Part shown: positions 1-43,854 of the stretch, piece by piece
How the letters are laid out: every line of letters begins with the position of its first letter
Numbering within the stretch: position 1 is the stretch's first letter
Source of the DNA: a virus
Length of the DNA: 43,854 bases
Virus record (IMG/VR): IMGVR_UViG_3300027908_000035
Coordinates: 1-43,854 of that record
Reading direction: 5' to 3' (one strand)
Notes under the pieces: generated by a model
Database searches by the model: none
Seen by the model: the letters and a program-made list of their open reading frames with translations, nothing else
What the model was told of the DNA's origin: nothing
Translations under genes and position numbers: made by a program

Positions 1-440
1 GTACCAACAAGGCGACGCTCGAGGACTCACTCTCCCAGGTCCACATCGGCGGACGCCTCTCTGAGGACGTCGAGTTTTCGGAGAAGACTTACCGCCTCGA
101 CACACAAGCCCAGGTCTCGGCCCTCGGGGACGTGATCGACAATGCGCTTGCTCCCAAGAACATCGATGCGCTCTGCACGACGGTGCGCGCGGCGAACGAG
201 GCAAAGGTCGAGTGGCGCCAGTTCTCTTCGAACCTCGGCAAGAAGCTTCTGAAGGAAGAGCTGAAGAGCGCGCGTGACGCGTTCGAGTCCGACGACGTGA
301 TCAACCTGCCCGCCGGCAAGAGCGTGTGGCGCATGAGCAACGCGATTTCCTGGATCGCGGGCAAGGTTGAAGACGCCGATCGCAAGCTGGAACTCCAGCG
401 CATGGCGGGGGATATCATCCTGGACGCGAAAGCGGCCTAA
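1..440 (+). CDS. DUF932-like phage protein, C-terminal part (5' truncated)
   Basis: The reading frame is open from the left edge to a TAA at 438-440, so only the last 145 or so residues are present and the start lies outside the window. The tail has the order W-x3-NAI-(about 20)-LQRMAG, which resembles the C-terminus of the DUF932/TIGR03299 phage and plasmid protein family (W-x3-NA, then a distal R-x-x-G). The biochemical role of that family is unknown. A hairpin terminator follows directly. The frame is certain; the family assignment is tentative. Confidence 0.5.
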   Translation, partial: TNKATLEDSLSQVHIGGRLSEDVEFSEKTYRLDTQAQVSALGDVIDNALAPKNIDALCTTVRAANEAKVEWRQFSSNLGKKLLKEELKSARDAFESDDVINLPAGKSVWRMSNAISWIAGKVEDADRKLELQRMAGDIILDAKAA

Positions 441-1133: not shown

Positions 1134-1772
1134 GTGATCTTCAACGAAGCGATTGCGCTACTGCACGACGGACGCCTCGACTTCACGGCGTTCTATCGCG
1201 AGACCCTTCCGTCTTGGGAACGGCTCGCGCGTTACCTCCTACGGCGTTGGAAAGCGCCCGCCTGGGTCGAGCTGGACGAAGTCGTTCAGGATCTCGTTCT
1301 CGGCGCCTGGGAGTCGGTCTGGTGTTACAGTGAGCCTCTTGCGAACGGTCGACCTCTTCACGACTTCGTCCAATGGAACGCCGTGGACAAGGCGAAGAAG
1401 AAGCTTCACAAGATGCGCGGCGCGAAACTCAGTGGCAACGCGGATTCCAATCCGAGTCACTACGAAACTCCCCTGTCCTCGTTCGAGGCGACGAGCGAAT
1501 GGCTCGACGGCCTTCTTCAGCACGGGGCGGAGCAACACGACATCGCGGAACGAAAACAGCGCATCGAGCGCGCATGCCGGACGGAAGCCGAGCGACGTGC
1601 AATTCGCGCGCTCTCCGAGACTGGCGACATCATCCAAGGAGCAATCCTGCTCTTTGGGGACGACGAGGCGAGACAGCTCTGCGGATTGCAGACACCTCGA
1701 GACGCCGGACGATTCGTCGCAAGCACTGCGTTTGCCGTGGCGCAGCGATTGAACAGACAAGAAGCGGCGTGA
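1134..1772 (+). CDS. Putative ECF-like RNA polymerase sigma factor
   Basis: 212 residues from GTG 1134, chosen because GAGG lies 5 nt upstream; a TTG start at 1104 is the alternative. Residues about 10-80 follow sigma-70 region 2: FYRETLP, LARYLLRRW, then DEVVQDLVLGAWESVW (compare D-x-EDLVQE-x-F-x3-W) and FVQWNAVDKAKKKLHK. The C-terminal part has short helices that could be a diverged region 4, but this is weak. A phage sigma factor would redirect host RNA polymerase to phage promoters, and this window carries a repeated non-host-like -10 box. The fold assignment is by motif only. Confidence 0.6.
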   Translation: MIFNEAIALLHDGRLDFTAFYRETLPSWERLARYLLRRWKAPAWVELDEVVQDLVLGAWESVWCYSEPLANGRPLHDFVQWNAVDKAKKKLHKMRGAKLSGNADSNPSHYETPLSSFEATSEWLDGLLQHGAEQHDIAERKQRIERACRTEAERRAIRALSETGDIIQGAILLFGDDEARQLCGLQTPRDAGRFVASTAFAVAQRLNRQEAA

Positions 1773-7516: not shown

Positions 7517-8701
7517 GTGAGAAAGCGAAGCACTACGAGAAGCGAACGCCGGACACGCCTTTCAGGCATCGAGGCAGCTGCAAAGGCGTTCGATGCGTTT
7601 CGTCCAGCACGTGACGTCCTTTCTGTCGTGCGCGCTGTGCCCACGCGTTTCGTTCAGTTCGATCACGCGACGAAGGTTGGAGGCCTTCCGATCGAGCGCT
7701 TCACGCTGATGCACGGGCCGTCCGGCGAGGGTAAGACAGCCATGTCCCTTGGTCTCTTGGCGAGCTTCCTCGCGCGTGATCACCTGGCGATGCTTGTGGA
7801 TGCAGAGCGCACCACACCCATCACGTGGGCGCGCGCGATGATGGGTCGCTACGCCGATCACCCGGGATTCTTCGCAGTGCGCCCACGGACGTACGAGGAG
7901 ACGGTGGAAACCGTCCGCAAGTTCGTCATGACGATCAAGAAGCAACGTGACGAAGGCACACTGTCCGAGGACACGAGTGGGATCATCATCGTCGACTCGA
8001 TCCGGAAGCTCGTCCCCGAGGGTTTGCTGAAACGCATCTTCGCTGAAGTAAAGGACCACGCGAACAAGCCAAAGGGGATTGATGGCATGGGCGGGCGCGG
8101 TGCTCAGATCAAGGCCGCGATGAACGCGCAGTGGATGGATGAGCTTGTGCCGCTTCTTGAGGAGACGGGTACGGCGTTCGTGTGTCTGACGCGTGAGACG
8201 GACGATCCTGATGCCAGTACGCAAGACAAGATGGCGGGGCGTGATTTCAAGGTCGGTGGTGGGAAAGCGCTCTACTACGATGGCTCGATGGTCCTGCGTG
8301 TCGAGCGTGCATCCTTCGTCGCAGACAGCGGAGACGACGAGGGGAAGAACAAGACGATGTTCGGAGAGCGTCACCTCGTCACGATTCGAAAGAGCAAGGT
8401 CGCCGGTCGCGAGGAGTTCACGACAAGGGCGTACTTCCATACGAGCAACGGCAATCTGATCCCTCCGGGATTCGATCGCGCACGTGATGTCGTCACTCTT
8501 GCCGAACAATTCGAGATCGTCGAGAAGCGAGGCGCGTGGTTTTCGTACGGCGACCAACGTCTAGGTCAGGGCATCAATGGTGTTGTGAAGAACCTGACGG
8601 AGAACGAAGCGCTTCTCGATGAGATCGAGCAAGCTGTACGCGACTCGTTCAAGAAGCACGAGCCGATGGAAGTGAACGAGGAGACAGGCGAGGTCGCGTG
8701 A
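7517..8701 (+). CDS. RecA/UvsX-family recombinase
   Basis: 394 residues from GTG 7517; the in-frame extension back to 7424 reads like untranslated leader. It would form filaments on ssDNA for strand exchange. Walker A GPSGEGKT lies at residues 67-74 and Walker B in SGIIIVDSIRKL, and a C-terminal part (GAWFSYGDQRLGQG, then an EIEQAVRD helix) is highly characteristic of RecA. It is co-operonic with the SbcD and SbcC genes downstream; the TGA overlaps the next ATG. Confidence 0.93.
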   Translation: MRKRSTTRSERRTRLSGIEAAAKAFDAFRPARDVLSVVRAVPTRFVQFDHATKVGGLPIERFTLMHGPSGEGKTAMSLGLLASFLARDHLAMLVDAERTTPITWARAMMGRYADHPGFFAVRPRTYEETVETVRKFVMTIKKQRDEGTLSEDTSGIIIVDSIRKLVPEGLLKRIFAEVKDHANKPKGIDGMGGRGAQIKAAMNAQWMDELVPLLEETGTAFVCLTRETDDPDASTQDKMAGRDFKVGGGKALYYDGSMVLRVERASFVADSGDDEGKNKTMFGERHLVTIRKSKVAGREEFTTRAYFHTSNGNLIPPGFDRARDVVTLAEQFEIVEKRGAWFSYGDQRLGQGINGVVKNLTENEALLDEIEQAVRDSFKKHEPMEVNEETGEVA

Positions 8702-12266: not shown

Positions 12267-12760
12267 GCCGACAGAAGGGCAACGCGGCGGAACGGGAAGT
12301 CGCCAAGAAGATCCAGATCTGGTGGCGTCATCTCGAGCCCACTGCGGAGTTCGTCCGCACACCTCTTTCGGGCGGATGGGGAGGTCCATCACTTCGTGGA
12401 GAGTTTGGAGCCGCGGGCGATCTCATGACGACGGCGAAGCGCTTTCCGTACGGTGTCGAGGTGAAGCGCCGGGAGAAGTGGGCGCTGCATTGCTTCATGG
12501 CTGGCAAACCGTGCCCCGTGTGGAAGTGGTGGTGGCAGACGCAGGAAGCCGCTGCAGAGATGAAGAAGATCCCGATGATGTGGATCCGACACAATCGCGA
12601 AGATTGGCTCGTCGTCCTTCCTATCGGCTCGTTGCACATCGACTATGATCACGTTTGGACGTCGACAGAATTGCAGGGCGTCAATTACGGCACTCACGAG
12701 CCGGCGATCTACAAAGCTGAGCGACTCCTGGCCTCCATTCCCATACCGAGCGATCCATGA
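12263..12760 (+). CDS. Putative PD-(D/E)XK nuclease (Holliday-junction-resolvase-like)
   Basis: 165 residues from GTG 12263, overlapping the previous stop. N-terminal RQKGNAAEREVAKKI resembles the first helix of resolvase-type nucleases. RTPLSGGW, then GDL (D-containing) and VEVKRRE (E-x-K) form a plausible catalytic core, followed by aromatic Trp-rich segments. It lies in the recombination operon, next to methyltransferase genes. Resolvase versus restriction-like role cannot be told from sequence alone. Confidence 0.65.
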   Translation: MSRQKGNAAEREVAKKIQIWWRHLEPTAEFVRTPLSGGWGGPSLRGEFGAAGDLMTTAKRFPYGVEVKRREKWALHCFMAGKPCPVWKWWWQTQEAAAEMKKIPMMWIRHNREDWLVVLPIGSLHIDYDHVWTSTELQGVNYGTHEPAIYKAERLLASIPIPSDP

Positions 12761-13995
12761 AGAAGGCGAAGAAGACAGACGGACTGAGCGCGATTCTCCG
12801 GGCGTCGCTCGATGAGTCCAATCCCGCGGCGCAGTGGGAAGACGTTTCCAAGTTGCGTGCGTGGATCAAGAACCCGAAGGACCACAAGAAGAACCTTCCG
12901 GACATCGTCCTTTCGATGCAGACGTTCGGATGGGGACGTCCCGTGGTCGCACGTTTGGCCGACTGCGAGATCATCGCCGGTCACGGTGCCATTCTCGCCG
13001 CGGAACAACTCGGAATCACGCGCGCACCGATCCGCTTCGTAGATCTCGAGGAGCGCCTTGCTCATGGTCTCGCGCTCGCAGACAACCGGATCCAGGAGAA
13101 GAGTGGCTACAACAAGCCCAACCTACTCGAGGCGCTCGCAGAGCAACGCGGACACGTGCCGACCTTTCAGGCCACGGGCTACAAGTACGAGGACTACTTC
13201 GGCGAGAAGAAGCCCCCGGCTGGTGAGGACGACATCCCCGAGGCGCCGAAGACTTCGCATACCAAAGTGGGCGACGTGTGGAAGTGCGGAGAGCACCTCG
13301 TTGTCTGCGGTGATTCGTTCGATGCGAAGATCCGATCGCTTGCGCTTAGCACCAAGCTTGTCGACGTGATCGTCACCGATCCGCCGTACGCGATCTACGG
13401 ATCGTCAACGGGCATCGGAGCTGACATCGCCGACGACAAGATGATCCGTCCGTTCATGGATCGCGTGGCGATGATTATCGCGACTCACTTGAAAGAGTTC
13501 GGACACGCGTACGTGTGTTGCGACTGGCGATCTTGGTCGTCCCTTTGGGACTCAGTGCGGCATCACCAGCTTGCCGGCAAGAACATGATCGTTTGGGACA
13601 AGGGTAATCAAGGAATGGGAGCTATGTATCAGCAGTGCCATGAGCTGACGATGTTCCTCGCCCGCGTGCCGCCTCCGAAGGCGATGACGTCGACCACCAA
13701 GCGTGGTCAGCGCGTCATTCACGGCAAGTCCAATGTCATGCGCATCGATCGCCCACGGGGAGAAGATAGAAAACACAATGCAGCCAAACCCGTCGAGCTG
13801 TTTCGCAACTTCATCGAGAACTCGACAGATGAAGGGGAGACCGTCGTAGACTTCTTTTGCGGCTCGGGGACAACTCTCATTGCAGCCGAGCAGACCAAGC
13901 GCAAGGCGATCCTCTTCGACTTGGAGCCGGTTGAAGTCGACAAGACGGTCCTTCGCTGGGAAGGCCTCACAAACCGCAAAGCCAAGAAGTTGTGA
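12757..13995 (+). CDS. ParB-like domain fused to N6/N4 DNA methyltransferase
   Basis: 412 residues, ATGA overlap with the previous gene. The N-terminus (about 20-150) resembles a ParB/Srx-like domain: LPDIVLSMQTFGWGRPVVARL, then IIAGHGAILAAEQLG and an ALADNR segment. The C-terminal methylase has catalytic DPPY at 208-211 first and the SAM-binding FCGSGTT at 367-373 afterwards, the beta-class order. This architecture is common in phages and probably protects phage DNA. Target sequence unknown. Confidence 0.9.
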   Translation: MKKAKKTDGLSAILRASLDESNPAAQWEDVSKLRAWIKNPKDHKKNLPDIVLSMQTFGWGRPVVARLADCEIIAGHGAILAAEQLGITRAPIRFVDLEERLAHGLALADNRIQEKSGYNKPNLLEALAEQRGHVPTFQATGYKYEDYFGEKKPPAGEDDIPEAPKTSHTKVGDVWKCGEHLVVCGDSFDAKIRSLALSTKLVDVIVTDPPYAIYGSSTGIGADIADDKMIRPFMDRVAMIIATHLKEFGHAYVCCDWRSWSSLWDSVRHHQLAGKNMIVWDKGNQGMGAMYQQCHELTMFLARVPPPKAMTSTTKRGQRVIHGKSNVMRIDRPRGEDRKHNAAKPVELFRNFIENSTDEGETVVDFFCGSGTTLIAAEQTKRKAILFDLEPVEVDKTVLRWEGLTNRKAKKL

Positions 13996-17843: not shown

Positions 17844-18304
17844 CGCCTCCGTACGGAGCCGATCCGGTCGCCTATCAAAAGTTGCGGAAGTTCTACGGCA
17901 AGGGAGACGCGGACGAGATCCTGAAGATCTTGCACGACGAACGAAAGTCGACTTTCGGTCAGGACTTCCTCCGCGTGGGCAACGAGATCGGCTCTCTCGT
18001 GCGCGAGAAGAACGAGGCCTACGGAGACAGCTTCGCGAAAGCGTGCATCATCCTCGAAGCGCTCTACCCCAAGGGCGTGCAGCCGTCGCAATATCGTGAC
18101 ATGCTCGGAGTCACGCGGATCATCGACAAGCTCTTTCGCATCGCGACGCGCAAGGATGCATTCGGCGAGTCTCCCTGGCGGGACATCGCGGGTTACGGAG
18201 TGGTCGCCACGGTCGCAGACGAACGCCAGAAACGCGTGATAGAGTCTTCGAAGAACGATGGCAGAGTTCGACGAAGAGGATCACCCGCGCGACGCACTCG
18301 GTAG
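17840..18304 (+). CDS. DUF1599/Nmad1-like nucleotide-modification-associated protein
   Basis: 154 residues from GTG 17840, GTGA overlap. Residues about 50-125 (NEIGSLVREKNEAYGDSF, then QYRDMLGVTRIIDKLFRIA, FGESPWRDIAGY) match the phage DUF1599/Nmad1 family, a MazG-like fold found with DNA base-modification genes. Palindrome copy 3 lies in frame inside the gene and reads ERKSTFG; a GTG at 17975, after the palindrome, is an alternative start that would keep the whole domain. It overlaps the following gene by 47 bp. Confidence 0.75.
   Translation: MTPPYGADPVAYQKLRKFYGKGDADEILKILHDERKSTFGQDFLRVGNEIGSLVREKNEAYGDSFAKACIILEALYPKGVQPSQYRDMLGVTRIIDKLFRIATRKDAFGESPWRDIAGYGVVATVADERQKRVIESSKNDGRVRRRGSPARRTR
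17942..17957. repeat. Palindrome copy 3 (16-bp core)
   Basis: CGAAAGTCGACTTTCG, lying in frame inside (or just before) the DUF1599-like coding region. Confidence 0.85.
18240..18257 (+). promoter_or_regulatory. Candidate promoter for the RelA/SpoT-like gene
   Basis: TGATAGAGT, with TAGAGT at 18240-18245, lies 12 nt before ATG 18258, inside the end of the preceding gene. The TCTTCG that follows also occurs after the TACGGT box at 37373. Confidence 0.4.
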
Positions 18305-19127
18305 GTGGTCAGATGTTGGCGGAGGGGCGTCCGCCGCTCAGCTGATCGGGCGCGCGAAGATCGCACACGAGAACTCCGGCGGGCTCTTTGATCCGAAAGA
18401 GCTGCAAGATCTGCCTGAACAGGTCAAGCAGTCCGAGAAGGACGGAGACAAGCTTTTCGAGCAAGCGCGTGAAGCGCACGAGATGCAGCTTGATCTTCTC
18501 GATCGTGACAAGGGTCTGTCCAAGGACATCGGGGCGAAGACCATCCGTGGCGACAAGATGCCGCTCGGAGAGTTCGTCAAGAACATCGAGAAGTCCACTG
18601 ACGAGCCCGGGCCCATGGTCGTCATCGGGCCGATGAAGAGCAAGGAGCGGAGCGAGGAGAAGGTCAAGGCAGACGGCGCGGGTGACTGGTCCACGCTGAC
18701 CGACGTCGTGCGATCAACCGTCGCCGTCGACACCATGTCCCAGGTCGGAGACGTTGTGCGGCATCTCCAGGCGCACGGTATACAGCTCGCGCGAAAGCCC
18801 ACGGACAGGTTCACAAACCCGACCGTCGCCGGCTACCGCGATCTCATGCTCAAGGTGAAGTACCCGAACGGACACGTGGGAGAGATCCAGGTCCAGATCA
18901 AGGGCATGCTGAAGGCCAAGGAGAAAGCCCATGGCCACTACGAGAAGGTCCGGAGCATCGAGGCGAAACTGAAGACGGAAAACCGCGCGATGACCGACTC
19001 CGAGCGTAAGACCTACGACGAGGCGAACTCGAAGATGAAAGAGATCTACAGCTCTGCGTGGCACAAGGCCAACGCGCGTCCGGACAAGCGCTCGGACTTC
19101 GAGACGCTCCGAGAGAACCTGTTCTAG
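18258..19127 (+). CDS. HPRDALGRW-headed protein with RelA/SpoT-synthetase-like domain
   Basis: 289 residues. HPRDALGRW (9-17) is typical of proteins linked to phage heads (MuF-type) and of toxins delivered with them. Residues about 125-225 follow the RelA/SpoT nucleotidyltransferase order: a GPMKSKERSEEK segment in place of the RVK-x3-S-x3-K ATP site, DVVRST (D149, R152), GYRD (192-195) and EIQVQ (209-213), then helices containing H and Y. The canonical first Arg is not obvious, so activity may be altered. It could pyrophosphorylate GDP/GTP or another acceptor. Its stop overlaps an opposing gene by 4 bp; an alarmone hydrolase lies just beyond. Confidence 0.65.
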   Translation: MAEFDEEDHPRDALGRWSDVGGGASAAQLIGRAKIAHENSGGLFDPKELQDLPEQVKQSEKDGDKLFEQAREAHEMQLDLLDRDKGLSKDIGAKTIRGDKMPLGEFVKNIEKSTDEPGPMVVIGPMKSKERSEEKVKADGAGDWSTLTDVVRSTVAVDTMSQVGDVVRHLQAHGIQLARKPTDRFTNPTVAGYRDLMLKVKYPNGHVGEIQVQIKGMLKAKEKAHGHYEKVRSIEAKLKTENRAMTDSERKTYDEANSKMKEIYSSAWHKANARPDKRSDFETLRENLF

Positions 19128-19318
19128 CCCTTCCGCAGAAGCGCCTTCTTGATCTCGAGGTACCGCGCCTTGGGGATCTCGGAGGCCTCGTGCGCGAACT
19201 TCACGAGTTCGGTCACCCGTCGCGGCTCTCCCGCGTGGGTGTAGACCATGATGTCATTCCCCCGCCGGTACGCCGGCATCCCGTCGAGATCGTAGTAGGT
19301 GACTGCTGTCTTGCTCAC
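19124..19318 (-). CDS. Small unknown protein, second gene of the alarmone-hydrolase operon
   Basis: 64 residues from GTG 19318. It starts 9 nt after the stop of the hydrolase gene on the same strand and ends tail-to-tail with the RelA/SpoT-like gene. N-terminal half beta-like (YYDLDGMPAYRRGNDIMVY), C-terminal half helical. It could be an immunity or regulatory partner; no family recognised. Confidence 0.65.
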   Translation of the reverse strand: MSKTAVTYYDLDGMPAYRRGNDIMVYTHAGEPRRVTELVKFAHEASEIPKARYLEIKKALLRKG

Positions 19319-19327
19319 GGTTTCATC

Positions 19328-19831
19328 CTAGCCCATCTCCGCGTCCAGCATGGCGAGCAGTCGCACATCCCCGAGGCTCAGTGCGGGACGAAGCGTGGCG
19401 TACTCCGCTCGGTACATTGCGAGTCGCTTGGGATCATTCTCTTTCGACGCTCGCACGTTGGCGAGTCGGTCCGCCATCTTCAGGGTTGCAGCGTCTCCGC
19501 AGTCTCCGAGAATGGCTGCGTTTCTGATCTTGCGCGAGATAGCTGCCATCCGCTCAACACGATCGTTGCCTACCCCCGTCACGGCGGAGACCATCGAAGC
19601 GACTTCAGATCCGAAGAGGTAGAGTAGTTCGATCTTGTCGGTCTCCGTGTCTTCAAGCACATCGTGAAGGTACGCAGCTTGTTCGAGCCGAGTGCCTCGC
19701 TTGCCGAGGATCTCGAGGGAGTGGACGATCTCCGCCACTTCGTCCAGGTGCACGATGTAGGGCTTGTCGCCGTACTTCTGGGCATCGTGTCGGTCTAGGG
19801 CGAACACCCGTGCTTTGGCTACCGTGGTCAT
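19328..19831 (-). CDS. Small alarmone hydrolase (MESH1/SAH-like HD protein)
   Basis: 167 residues. It has the full RelA/SpoT-type HD hydrolase series: FALDRH (H15), PYIVH (H28), YLHDVLEDT (H56, D57, E60, D61), FGSEVASMVSAVTG and KMADRLANVR (D121). These are the metal ligands and active-site residues of (p)ppGpp 3'-pyrophosphohydrolases. Length is normal for a stand-alone hydrolase. Transcription is leftward from a promoter at 19852-19879. Beside a RelA/SpoT-synthetase-like gene it would fit an antitoxin or a detoxifying partner, as in toxSAS systems with hydrolase antitoxins. Confidence 0.88.
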   Translation of the reverse strand: MTTVAKARVFALDRHDAQKYGDKPYIVHLDEVAEIVHSLEILGKRGTRLEQAAYLHDVLEDTETDKIELLYLFGSEVASMVSAVTGVGNDRVERMAAISRKIRNAAILGDCGDAATLKMADRLANVRASKENDPKRLAMYRAEYATLRPALSLGDVRLLAMLDAEMG

Positions 19832-19851
19832 CTCATTCTTCTCGCACTTCC

Positions 19852-19879
19852 AACCTAGTCACTGGGACAAGCAACACAA
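19852..19879 (-). promoter_or_regulatory. Operator-bearing promoter of the alarmone-hydrolase operon
   Basis: On the minus strand, TTGTGT, 16 bp, TAGGTT. The spacer holds TTGTCCCAGTGA (19859-19870). It lies 20 nt before the ATG. Confidence 0.7.
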
Positions 19880-19902
19880 GGCCATCAGTCGACGATGCGT
19901 GG

Positions 19903-20205
19903 TCATCCTTGGTACCCCTTTGCGTTGATGATGGCGTCCTGAGCCGCGAGCCCTTCGGGAAACCATTCCGCCTTCCGTGCCTTCCGCGCCTCCGCTTTCT
20001 CGAGCGCAGCCCATCCCTCTAGAGTCAACGTGCGGTGCCGCAAGAGGTGTGATTCCCAGGGCATGAAGGGACGCGTGAGCCCTGCCGCGGTGAAGTCGAG
20101 CACATCCTGGATCGTGACGCGGCTCATGTCCGGGTCGCCTCCGTAGAAGGCCTCGCGGTACTGAGCCAAGATCGCAACACGTCGGGGGGTCATTCGGAGC
20201 TTCAT
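19903..20205 (-). CDS. Unknown small protein, divergent gene
   Basis: 100 residues, transcribed leftward from the promoter at 20225-20252. N-terminal MKLRMTPRRVAILAQYREA looks helix-turn-helix-like; the C-terminal half is Ala/Glu/Lys-rich. This could be a regulator, but no family was identified. Confidence 0.6.
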   Translation of the reverse strand: MKLRMTPRRVAILAQYREAFYGGDPDMSRVTIQDVLDFTAAGLTRPFMPWESHLLRHRTLTLEGWAALEKAEARKARKAEWFPEGLAAQDAIINAKGYQG

Positions 20206-20224
20206 CGTCGTTCCCTCAGCTCAG

Positions 20225-20252
20225 AACCTAATCACTGGGACAAGCTTCGCAA
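20225..20252 (-). promoter_or_regulatory. Operator-bearing promoter, leftward
   Basis: Minus strand TTGCGA, 16 bp containing TTGTCCCAGTGA, TAGGTT. It is back-to-back with the rightward promoter at 20258. Confidence 0.7.
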
Positions 20253-20257
20253 CCCCC

Positions 20258-20285
20258 TTGCAGACCTTGTCCCAGTGATTATCTT
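20258..20285 (+). promoter_or_regulatory. Operator-bearing promoter, rightward
   Basis: TTGCAG, 16 bp containing TTGTCCCAGTGA, TATCTT. Together with 20225-20252 it makes an inverted repeat of the operator around a 20-bp centre. Confidence 0.7.
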
Positions 20286-20309
20286 GAGTGCTGGAAGGAC
20301 GGCGGCACG

Positions 20310-20549
20310 ATGACCAAGAAGATCAGCGAGAAGGAAGCCTACGAGACTCTTCACCTCGCCCTGTTGCATGAGGAGAAGGGTCCGATGTCGGACAGTGCGA
20401 AGCTCTGCGCCAAAGACGCGCTAGATCTCTTCAACGCAGGCGACTTCGATTCCGCCTACACGCGCGCCCGTGAGAGCATCCGCTACTCCGTGGGTGTCTT
20501 CAGCATGGCGTTTCAGTTCGGTGTCTACCGGCAGGGAGAAGGGGTCTGA
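20310..20549 (+). CDS. Small helical unknown protein
   Basis: 79 residues, GGAAGGA upstream. First gene of a rightward operon under the 20258 promoter. Helical (EKEAYETLHLALLHEEKG). Function unknown. Confidence 0.65.
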   Translation: MTKKISEKEAYETLHLALLHEEKGPMSDSAKLCAKDALDLFNAGDFDSAYTRARESIRYSVGVFSMAFQFGVYRQGEGV

Positions 20550-20551
20550 TC

Positions 20552-20890
20552 ATGCTGACCTGGACAGAGAGTTCCTACAGGTTTAGCGAGGATGGCATCT
20601 GCCACGTGTGGAGGTCGGAGAAGGTCTCCTACGGTGTCAAGGATGCCAAGGGGCGAGATGTCGGTGGCTACGTGACCATCGAAAACGGTAGCGCCTGGCG
20701 CGAGCCGGGCTTCTACGTGCGGACCAATGCCACGCGCGACGGTAAAGGCTTCGGGGCTATTGCAAAAAGTGCACGGTGCGCGACCCTTGAAGAAGCAAAG
20801 GCCCTTGGCGAGAAGAAGATCGCGGACGCGGCCAAGCGCTATGCCAAGCTTGCTGCCAAGGGCGTGGGTCGTCAGTGGAGGGCGGCATGA
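20552..20890 (+). CDS. Small unknown protein
   Basis: 112 residues, second gene of the operon. Beta-rich first half and an Ala/Lys-rich helical C-terminus. No recognised motif. Confidence 0.65.
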   Translation: MLTWTESSYRFSEDGICHVWRSEKVSYGVKDAKGRDVGGYVTIENGSAWREPGFYVRTNATRDGKGFGAIAKSARCATLEEAKALGEKKIADAAKRYAKLAAKGVGRQWRAA

Positions 20891-21048
20891 TCTACACCGA
20901 TGACAAGGGTCGCCCTTTCGAGCGGCCCTGCCGGGAAGACTTCGCCACGGACCTAGCCTTCGTCCAGGCTTTCCACGCTTGGAGAGATGCACGCACACGG
21001 GCAGCAAACGAGGCGTTCGACAAGGCCTTGCGTAGCTTGTCCCAGTGA
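20887..21048 (+). CDS. Small unknown protein (53 aa)
   Basis: ATG 20887 overlaps the previous stop as ATGA. Acidic/basic and helical, with FVQAFHAWRDARTRAA. Its last codons (SLSQ-stop) are the next promoter's operator, TTGTCCCAGTGA. The coupling and coding-like composition support a real gene. Confidence 0.6.
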   Translation: MIYTDDKGRPFERPCREDFATDLAFVQAFHAWRDARTRAANEAFDKALRSLSQ

Positions 21049-21055
21049 TTAGGTT
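21028..21055 (+). promoter_or_regulatory. Operator-bearing promoter
   Basis: TTGCGT, 16 bp containing TTGTCCCAGTGA, TAGGTT. It overlaps the end of the 53-aa gene and drives the gene at 21081. Confidence 0.7.
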
Positions 21056-21080
21056 CTGAGGTGCAAGGGAGAACACCTCG

Positions 21081-21278
21081 ATGTTGACGGTCCACGCGGT
21101 ACTCGCAGGTTGCTACAAGGGTGGTCGGAAGAGCCTCAAGGCGATGCTGACGCACTACGCGGTACCTGGGACGAACGATGCGCTCTGCGGCAAGGTGCGC
21201 CCGGGTGGCCTTTGTGACCTTGAAGAGAGTGGATCACCGACGTGCCCAGCGTGCGTCCGGAAGGGTGGTGTCTCGTGA
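21081..21278 (+). CDS. Small Cys-rich protein
   Basis: 65 residues. CGK ... LC ... CPAC near the C-terminus suggests a zinc site. GGGAGAACACC lies upstream. Function unknown. Confidence 0.6.
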   Translation: MLTVHAVLAGCYKGGRKSLKAMLTHYAVPGTNDALCGKVRPGGLCDLEESGSPTCPACVRKGGVS

Positions 21279-21457
21279 CCAGACAAGTGACCTACAAGGT
21301 GGGGCTCGCGAACAAGATCGTTCGCGGGCGCGCAGTCGGCAACCTCTGGGGGGTGAGCCGCTACATTGACGGCAACCGGAACTGTTGGGTTCTTGAGCCG
21401 CAAGAGAGCGAGCAGAAAGCTCGTCAGGTGTGTGCTGAGCTTTCAGCGGCCGGTTGA
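21275..21457 (+). CDS. Small unknown protein
   Basis: 60 residues from GTG 21275, GTGA overlap. Beta-like with WGVSRYIDG and a helical end. No family recognised. Confidence 0.6.
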   Translation: MTRQVTYKVGLANKIVRGRAVGNLWGVSRYIDGNRNCWVLEPQESEQKARQVCAELSAAG

Positions 21458-21482
21458 CGAACGTTGTCCCAGTGACTAGGTT
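21454..21482 (+). promoter_or_regulatory. Operator-bearing promoter
   Basis: TTGACG, 17 bp containing TTGTCCCAGTGA, TAGGTT; the best -35 of the group. Drives the gene at 21547. Confidence 0.75.
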
Positions 21483-21546: not shown

Positions 21547-21981
21547 ATGAGCGAGATCAAGAGCTACGAGAACGTCACTCTTTTCATCTGCACGATGTTC
21601 GGCTTCCGTCGAACGCTCTGCAGGACGCTGACGGTGGAGACGGGTCGCCCGTACGCTCAGCACACCAACGCCACGCGCGTCGAGTTCGTCGAAAAGGGCA
21701 AGCGCTCGAAGCGCGCTTTCGTCTCGTACGGTTTCGGTGGTGGTCGCACGAACTCGTTCATCGTGCTTGCCGGCTACCACGATGACTTCACGGGTGGCTG
21801 GCTTCAGGGCACGGGCGACGGAGGTTCGCGGAGCAAGTGGGCGAGTTGTGCCATCGAATGGGACTACGACTTCAACAAGGCGCTCGACAAGTACAGTGCC
21901 GAGGTCTCGGGTGACGTCGAGATCCTTCACGATGATCGGTTCACCAAAGCCACGGAGGCTCCGGTAGCGGAGGCGGTGTGA
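21547..21981 (+). CDS. Unknown protein with conserved leader
   Basis: 144 residues from ATG 21547. The leader ends GGCTGCGGCCATG, as at 569, and includes the element shared with the recombinase leader. The middle is Gly/Arg-rich (YGFGGGRTNSF), the C-terminus acidic. Function unknown. Confidence 0.65.
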   Translation: MSEIKSYENVTLFICTMFGFRRTLCRTLTVETGRPYAQHTNATRVEFVEKGKRSKRAFVSYGFGGGRTNSFIVLAGYHDDFTGGWLQGTGDGGSRSKWASCAIEWDYDFNKALDKYSAEVSGDVEILHDDRFTKATEAPVAEAV

Positions 21982-22166
21982 TGAAGTTCGTTCTCGAGAT
22001 CGAGATGGGCAACGATGCTGTACAAACTCCGCGCGATGTCGCGTTCGTTCTCAAGCGCGCAGCCGTCTCCGTTTCCCGTGTGGAGGATTGGCACGAGTCG
22101 TATAAGGAAGCTCGGATCCTCGATGCCAACGGCAACACGATTGGTCAGTGGGAGATCAGGAAGTGA
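21981..22166 (+). CDS. Small unknown protein
   Basis: 61 residues from ATG 21981 (or GTG 21978), overlapping the previous stop. No motif recognised. Confidence 0.55.
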   Translation: MKFVLEIEMGNDAVQTPRDVAFVLKRAAVSVSRVEDWHESYKEARILDANGNTIGQWEIRK

Positions 22167-22169
22167 TCC

Positions 22170-22430
22170 ATGAGGCAGGGCGGATACAGAGTGATCGATC
22201 TGGGCATTCGCGTTTCGAATGATCCCAAGGGTGCGACAAAGGACATTCTCGCGGCGTATACCGAGGCCAAGTGCAGCGCGGTCGGCGCTGCGAACTTGCT
22301 CAACGTCACCTACCGCACGTTCTGGCGGTACGTGACCAAGCTCGATCTTCACTCTGATCTCGAGCGTCTCACCTTGCGTTCGAAACGCGAGGGCTGGTTT
22401 CACAACACGAGATGGTCAGGGACGGCATAA
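22170..22430 (+). CDS. Small Fis-like HTH protein
   Basis: 86 residues. Residues about 27-62 (ILAAYTEAK, VGAANLLNVTYRTFWRYVTKLDL) follow a Fis/HTH_8 helix-turn-helix. It is a likely DNA-binding regulator. A CATAAC box of the next gene lies at its end. Confidence 0.6.
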   Translation: MRQGGYRVIDLGIRVSNDPKGATKDILAAYTEAKCSAVGAANLLNVTYRTFWRYVTKLDLHSDLERLTLRSKREGWFHNTRWSGTA

Positions 22431-22439: not shown

Positions 22440-22934
22440 ATGAGTGTCCGACGCCGCTACGACTTCGTCACCCTCGTACAGACGATTGTTCTGCATCAGC
22501 ATCCCCCTCTCGAGATCGCGATCAAGATCCTCGAAACGGCGATGAGCCTTCCTGAGGAGGCCATCCCGAGCACCCATCTTCGCGATGCCGCCTTCGAGCT
22601 ATGGCAATGGAAGATGGGTCGTGAGGCGCCTCCCAAGTACATCCAGGACTACGAAGCGGTCCAGCGTGAAGCAGAGGCGGAGAAGACGCGCGCGGTGATC
22701 ATTCGGATCAATCGCGACGTGGAGTGTGATCCGTGGTGGCTCATGGCGGAGAACTTTTCCGCCAGTCTCCCGAAGTCGTGCATCGACATCGTGTGCGGCC
22801 GGGGGATCGAACACATCACGGTCTCGCGTAAGGATGCGGAGCAATTCCGCGACTGGGGTGAGCAGATCCACGGGTGGCACGATGGTCCCCCTTTCATCTT
22901 CGAGAATGCAGATGGGAGCGCAGCTTTCCAATGA
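22440..22934 (+). CDS. Unknown protein
   Basis: 164 residues. Helical N-terminal half, with a mixed C-terminal half containing HGWHDGPPF. No recognised family. First of a set coupled to the DnaA-like gene. Confidence 0.65.
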   Translation: MSVRRRYDFVTLVQTIVLHQHPPLEIAIKILETAMSLPEEAIPSTHLRDAAFELWQWKMGREAPPKYIQDYEAVQREAEAEKTRAVIIRINRDVECDPWWLMAENFSASLPKSCIDIVCGRGIEHITVSRKDAEQFRDWGEQIHGWHDGPPFIFENADGSAAFQ

Positions 22935-23221
22935 CCTTCACTGAGTTCGTCGATCAGCTTCGCGAACGCGGTCTCTACGAGCGCATGCAGCAGATCTGTC
23001 GGTTCCAAGGTGTGCTCCTTGAAGAGGTCTTCGATCTCCGCGGGACAGGAAGCACGCGCTTCGCACGCGGGCGGATCTGGTGTTGGCTTGTGGACGATTG
23101 CCACAAGACGCATTCTGAAGTCGCGCGCATGTTCGGGCGCAAAGAGATGGCCACGGTACGGGATGCGGTGAAGACATGGCGACTGAGACACAAGAAGCCG
23201 GGGATGAACCTCGTCCCCTGA
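22931..23221 (+). CDS. DnaA domain IV-like DNA-binding protein
   Basis: 96 residues, ATGA overlap. Residues about 45-85 (ARGRIWCWLVDDCHKTHSEV, then ARMFGRKEMATVRDAV) match the order of the DnaA C-terminal domain: aR-x-ia-x-yL, then I-x3-FG-x-RDHsTV. The RDHST signature is degenerate (KEMATV). The ATPase domain is absent. It may bind an origin, or DnaA boxes on host or phage DNA. Confidence 0.6.
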   Translation: MTFTEFVDQLRERGLYERMQQICRFQGVLLEEVFDLRGTGSTRFARGRIWCWLVDDCHKTHSEVARMFGRKEMATVRDAVKTWRLRHKKPGMNLVP

Positions 23222-43701: not shown

Positions 43702-43854
43702 ATGGTCGGATCTAGGAAGAACCCCCTTCGCGCGACATTGCTCACAGTGCGCTACCACGTCGAGCATGCCGTGGACGAGATCTCGAAGGCCATCCGTCAG
43801 GATGTCGATGGCGAAGAGTTGGCCATCGCGGTGAAGGCGCTCCGCACCATCGCG
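43702..43854 (+). CDS. Partial gene running off the window
   Basis: ATG 43702, open for 51 codons to the right edge. N-terminus basic (MVGSRKNPLRATLL), then helical. Not identifiable from this piece. Confidence 0.55.
   Translation, partial: MVGSRKNPLRATLLTVRYHVEHAVDEISKAIRQDVDGEELAIAVKALRTIA

Follow-up and report, generated by a model that had tools for sequence, protein, structure and literature searches.

A repeated promoter-like element with a conserved spacer block ahead of accessory genes in an uncultured phage

Genome and gene content of the locus

The window analysed here is the whole of the viral record IMGVR_UViG_3300027908_000035 (43,854 nucleotides). Together with the contig IMGVR_UViG_3300027908_000028 (59,940 bp), it makes up the two parts of one phage genome of ~103,607 bp (~103.6 kb). 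The last 99 bases of the window (43756-43854) are the first 99 bases of the other contig, window positions 1-88 match the last 88 bases of that contig at 98.9%, and open reading frames continue through both joins. These overlaps and frames show that contig and window belong to one genome, and the contig was therefore dropped as independent support for the element described below. The genome is thus closed or circularly permuted, and the catalogue splits it into two records. The phage is best explained as an uncultured, lytic-type myophage. Coding sequence amounts to ~90.7 kb on the plus strand and ~5.1 kb on the minus strand, where three clear operons are found (window 19124-20205; other contig 45328-47932 and 57489-58195), the remaining minus-strand reading frames called being few, single, low-scoring and doubtful.

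The features of the locus, and those related to them elsewhere in the genome, are collected in Table 1. The HD-domain protein encoded at 19328-19831 is matched by Pfam HD_4 (4.7e-12) and by NCBIfam spoT_relA (4.3e-14), and its matches in the PDB are SpoT/Rel, MESH1 and SAH chains. A gene convergent with it (18258-19127, plus strand) encodes a RelA/SpoT-type synthetase domain, for which Tas1 is the best match among solved structures (E 6e-4); this gene is not behind any of the promoter-like sites. Apk2 and Aph1 are a toxin/immunity pair of MuF prophage toxins (PMC12226406), and by analogy the (p)ppApp/(p)ppGpp synthetase-like protein and the hydrolase may possibly constitute a pair of the same kind. 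The protein starting at 18258 has an N-terminal HPRDxxG(R/K)(F/W)-like tag in common with those at 8324 and 56245 of the other contig, the three being otherwise different.

Three of the small proteins nearby are candidate DNA-binding proteins. The product of 19903-20205, without match of note in the PDB, is winged-helix-like by eye and is a candidate autoregulator; that of 22170-22430 may contain a Fis-like helix-turn-helix, also by eye, its single-sequence structure model being of low confidence and too poor for use. On its weak resemblance to DnaA domain IV, the product of 22931-23221 is a further candidate regulator.

Table 1. Promoter-like sites, genes and repeats in the window and in the other contig (IMGVR_UViG_3300027908_000028)
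Feature	Position	Strand	Remarks
Divergent phage sigma-factor-like protein (region 2)	1134..1772	+	
64-aa protein	19124..19318	-	No family match; member of the hydrolase unit
Small alarmone hydrolase-like HD-domain protein, 167 aa	19328..19831	-	HDxxED motif
Site 1	19852..19879	-	TTGTGT-16-TAGGTT, block 19859-19870; heads HD hydrolase unit (start codon 19831)
100-aa protein	19903..20205	-	First gene after site 2; weak wHTH match, E 0.19
Site 2	20225..20252	-	TTGCGA-16-TAGGTT, block 20232-20243; heads gene 19903-20205; back to back with site 3
Site 3	20258..20285	+	TTGCAG-16-TATCTT, block 20267-20278; heads gene 20310-20549
Three small orphan genes (79, 112, 53 aa)	20310..21048	+	Behind site 3; no families
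Site 4	21028..21055	+	TTGCGT-16-TAGGTT, block 21037-21048; heads 21081-21278; overlaps 3' end of 20887-21048
Two small orphan genes (65, 60 aa)	21081..21457	+	Behind site 4; no match over cut-off
Site 5	21454..21482	+	TTGACG-17-TAGGTT, block 21464-21475; heads gene 21547-21981
144-aa orphan, 61-aa orphan, 86-aa HTH candidate	21547..22430	+	Behind site 5
96-aa protein	22931..23221	+	Pfam Bac_DnaA_C E 0.023, below cut-off; DnaA chain E 0.77
Complete site, other contig	47974	-	
Complete site, other contig	58256	-	Block with one change, TATGAT
Complete site, other contig	58320	+	
Orphan block TTGTCCTAGTGA, other contig	58301	-	Without -35 and -10
GAAAGTCGACTTTC copies, window	2959, 9465, 17943, 24131, 27481, 31573, 36941, 42348		
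GAAAGTCGACTTTC copies, other contig	5161, 10191, 19451, 22263, 30180, 37643, 43609, 48731, 51423, 57473, 59016		
ACGGCATNAC in window, among others	16882, 24159, 26073, 27509, 32062, 33043, 36969, 41844, 43439, 43688		

The promoter-like sites

Each site of the window consists of a TTG, a spacer of 16 or 17 bases ending in TTGTCCCAGTGA and one pyrimidine, and then TAGGTT or TATCTT. The five exact blocks lie where a preliminary description of this DNA had placed them, with TTG and TAnnTT at fixed spacing on either side, and the hexamers and spacers (16 bp at four sites, 17 bp at site 5) are also as it had reported; a search of the whole window revealed no further exact copy. Two of its statements had to be modified. 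The conserved block does not cover the entire spacer but 12-13 of its 16-17 bases, the 3-4 next to the -35 box being variable, and the family is not confined to one island at 19852-21482, since three more complete sites and an orphan block are found in the other contig, so that three islands are involved.

The whole genome contains seven exact copies of TTGTCCCAGTGA, against none in each of 60 dinucleotide-preserving shuffles of the 103.6 kb (mean 0.0). Copies with two mismatches are also in excess (15 against 6.1 expected, sd 2.7; among them 26142, 27888, 28642 and 34599 of the window, these four on the minus strand), and most of the copies are antisense inside genes and without promoter boxes.

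All eight complete sites have a gene start on the same strand 20-80 nt downstream; this upstream zone comprises 4.9% of the stranded positions, and the naive product for eight sites is 4e-11. The three minus-strand operons named above all begin with a promoter-like site, and two pairs of sites are divergent (20243-/20267+ and 58256-/58320+). Agreement with TTGACA/TATAAT is limited to the TTG and TA..T positions, and a strict scan for E. coli sigma-70 promoters between 18.9 and 22.5 kb returned none, by rules that may not suit a G+C-rich host; -10 boxes like TAGGTT are ordinary among G+C-rich bacteria. Because the hexamers are weak alone, the promoter assignment draws on the recurrence of the element, its constant spacing and its location, from which it is very probable that the eight sites are promoters; they would form a genome-wide, phage-specific family with an asymmetric conserved spacer. 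About 22 genes, mostly small, are served by the sites according to our own assignment of genes to units.

Conservation and copying of the element

When the eight complete sites are aligned on the block, pairwise identity is 0.98 in the block, 0.83 in the TTG and 0.80 in the -10 hexamer, and it falls to 0.49 in the six bases before the block and to 0.25-0.31 in the flanks, which is the random level. The identity of the TTG becomes complete after shifting site 5 by its extra base, which lies between TTG and block; the block thus keeps its register with the -10 box, whereas its distance from the -35 box varies. By inspection the block contains only a partial dyad (GTC-CCAGT-GAC) that is within chance expectation, and no clear palindrome.

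The difference between block and flanks indicates that conservation is mostly due to selection and not to recent copying. Nevertheless, the sites at 20267+ and 58320+ have 38 identical bases running from the block into the leader, which shows that copying produced some of the family, and owing to this partial duplication of leaders the eight sites cannot be counted as wholly independent. That the block has no function as such, the sites having recently spread as copies of a single mobile promoter cassette, is hardly credible: these 38 bases and the 84% likeness of the two divergent regions across 83 bp would suit it, but the flanks are random beside a nearly invariant block, and there is variation in the six bases that separate the TTG from it.

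The orphan block 58301(-) is the positional counterpart of 20243(-), and lies back to back beside the plus-strand site 58320(+). It keeps 11 of the 12 bases despite the loss of both hexamers and despite gaps and changes in the stretch that separates the two blocks. This single case is the best evidence for a role of the block of its own and suits the site of a regulator, although it could instead be a decaying promoter.

Occurrence of the element in other genomes

Among viral contigs, the extended element was found besides the window only in IMGVR_UViG_3300027908_000028. Viral contigs contain TTGTCCCAGTGAYTA in 103 stretches, which outside that contig are all single matches; they were rejected as members of the family, the contexts of the best 25 of 102 being unlike it. 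A search of 84,980 bacterial and archaeal genomes for TTG-N6-TTGTCCCAGTGAYTA gave four matches, one each in unrelated genomes. The preliminary description had named frequent occurrence of the block in promoters of unrelated host genes as the observation that would speak against its reading; this is not what is seen in this set, although the host may be outside it. No cluster of copies was found in other viral or bacterial genomes.

Searches with the HD hydrolase, the terminase and the sigma-like protein yielded no close viral relative; relatives were found through the portal and UvsX proteins. One of them, IMGVR_UViG_3300050016_000116 (99,644 bp), is syntenic with the phage, its major head protein being 81% identical and many others 40-60%, and it has almost no minus-strand genes. 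It contains no copy of the element within two mismatches; the best match has three, and there is no repeated family. Homologues in this relative exist for 1 of the 22 served genes and for 67 of the 146 others (Fisher p 1e-4), and when only proteins under 150 aa are considered the values are 1/20 and 22/76 (p 0.036). The served genes being mostly without homologue, the element marks accessory, lineage-specific islands. This means that a control element absent from the core genome and from the relative can be common to accessory islands at distant places of a phage genome.

Two other genes of the phage were noted. At 49400-52036 of the other contig a helicase is split by an intein-like Hint domain, and the relative aligns with 309 of 878 residues in the best segment. 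At 12757-13995 of the window a ParB-like N-terminal domain is fused to a DNA methyltransferase, without match in the relative.

Interpretation of the conserved block

The eight sites may be interpreted as promoters of the host RNA polymerase whose spacer carries the asymmetric operator of one regulator, a reading to which we give about even chances. Each site would be recognised by the host enzyme through the TTG at -35 and TAnnTT at -10, and would start a transcription unit of small, lineage-specific and probably early-expressed genes; both promoter activity and early timing are what we infer from the sites, whose spacing, orientation, positions and conservation are read directly from the sequence. 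The 12-bp spacer block would most likely serve as asymmetric operator, bound by a single sequence-specific protein that the phage itself probably encodes and by which three separate accessory islands would switch together. We also infer the existence of this regulator and the sign of its action, repression by occupancy of the spacer being slightly more likely than activation. Several observations favour this explanation: the position of 8/8 sites, the heads of the minus-strand operons, the conservation of the block, its phasing with the -10 box, the orphan block and the lineage-specific genes, to which must be added that no single-subunit RNA polymerase was found among the scanned proteins. 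On the other hand, the hexamers fit E. coli rules badly, the regulator candidates are weak, and the block is not clearly palindromic, bacterial repressors mostly binding dyads.

A T7-like promoter was considered and set aside; the PF00940 profile is without match here, but it found none in the control genomes either. Host DnaA is an unlikely reader, as the block shares only TTGTCC with TTGTCCACA, the G+C-rich form of the DnaA box. It is about as likely as not that the block has a separate regulator as its reader. The more specific proposal that a dedicated regulator, with the DnaA domain-IV-like protein 22931-23221 and the winged-helix-like protein 19903-20205 as candidates, governs one accessory regulon of three islands including the alarmone hydrolase is doubtful. 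The preliminary description had put the hydrolase and its neighbours under a single regulator; the common orientation-locked sites, the conserved block and the orphan block are in line with it, and its restriction to that neighbourhood does not hold given the three islands.

It is possible, if unlikely, that TTG-N6-TTGTCCCAGTGAYTAnnTT as a whole is a promoter read by the phage sigma-like protein 1134-1772, in the manner of phiEco32-like phages and without any separate regulator. The protein is a divergent one: Sigma70_r2 matches with E 2.0e-4 for the genome, below the curated cut-off, tblastn against named phages gave no match, and the structure model is of low confidence (mean pLDDT 54), with Foldseek matches that are nearly all sigma factors and a TM of 0.62-0.66 to region 2 of E. 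coli sigma-E. The presence of this protein and hexamers that are poor for sigma-70 would agree with such a promoter, and there are precedents, as the gp36 sigma of phiEco32 reads tAATGTAtA and the gp47 sigma of phage 7-11 reads GTAAtg-(16)-aCTA (PMC8948821). Those phages are alike in having a private promoter family and a divergent sigma-like protein, with the same 16-bp spacing in the 7-11 type (PMC8948821); however, a conserved spacer has not been reported for them and their sites serve middle or late genes, whereas in the present element conservation is highest in the spacer and the genes are accessory. Moreover, the relative keeps the sigma-like protein (45% identity over 202 aa) without having the element, so that the sigma is probably not the reader of the block, and it could pair instead with another start-associated element (ACGGCA-) present in both phages. 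The invariant stretch from -13 to -24 also exceeds what a sigma factor is generally known to read.

Small orphan genes in divergent units are typical of early genes, and genes of this kind are what the sites serve. The sites could accordingly be strong, plain early promoters of the host polymerase, the spacer being an extended polymerase optimum and no regulator being involved, which we consider improbable. T4 early promoters are similar in their many copies, in a consensus that extends beyond the -35 and -10 boxes and in their place ahead of small early genes (PMC2988021), but they have excellent sigma-70 boxes and the hexamers here are weak. The block is also conserved more than the -10 box, and an orphan block without hexamers would not be expected.

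Still less credit, and very little, is given to the idea of the preliminary description that a lysogeny-type repressor on the block restrains accessory or immunity genes. A conserved site inside promoter spacers is a place where a repressor may act, and the Apk/Aph-like pair of synthetase and hydrolase adjoins the sites; nevertheless, neither an integrase (PF00589) nor an HTH_3 repressor (PF01381) was matched in either contig by searches that were positive in 14/14 control genomes, and the analogy with immunity found no positive support. The stoperators of mycobacteriophage L5 are also short asymmetric sites of one phage regulator distributed over the genome, but they are many, often inside genes and linked to the immunity repressor, whereas the block occurs almost exclusively in promoters and the search for an HTH_3 repressor was negative.

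Should a separate protein bind the spacer block, as proposed for the host-polymerase promoters with an operator, the promoter design would be unusual. In any case, the sites provide a sequence handle on genes that would be switched together, including the alarmone hydrolase beside the Tas1-like synthetase.

Other repeated elements

The element ACGGCATNAC precedes 21 gene starts (at most one mismatch) at about 16 nt from the start codon, and ACGGCACTC is found at the corresponding place in the relative, in 13 copies. It could function in ribosome binding, or be a -10 element from which the phage sigma starts leaderless transcripts. The start-associated sequences (SAS) of Cluster K mycobacteriophages are an asymmetric, oriented 13-bp repeat upstream of gene starts (PMC3203893). 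These are tied to translation starts, whereas the block is located 27-75 nt upstream and between promoter-like boxes, its end having been measured at 27-72 nt from the start codon, and it is ACGGCATNAC that resembles SAS far more than the block does.

The perfect palindrome GAAAGTCGACTTTC occurs in 19 copies, two of them with one change, which are mostly intergenic and distributed over the ~103.6-kb genome. Their mean spacing is 5.45 kb with a CV of 0.37, and 0 of 20,000 random placements were as regular. The palindrome of the relative is a different one, AAAGCGCTTT within GATTCGAAAAGCGCTTTTCGAATC, with 20 copies that are likewise over-regular (p 0.004). The palindromes look like a conserved genome-wide system whose sequence is phage-specific.
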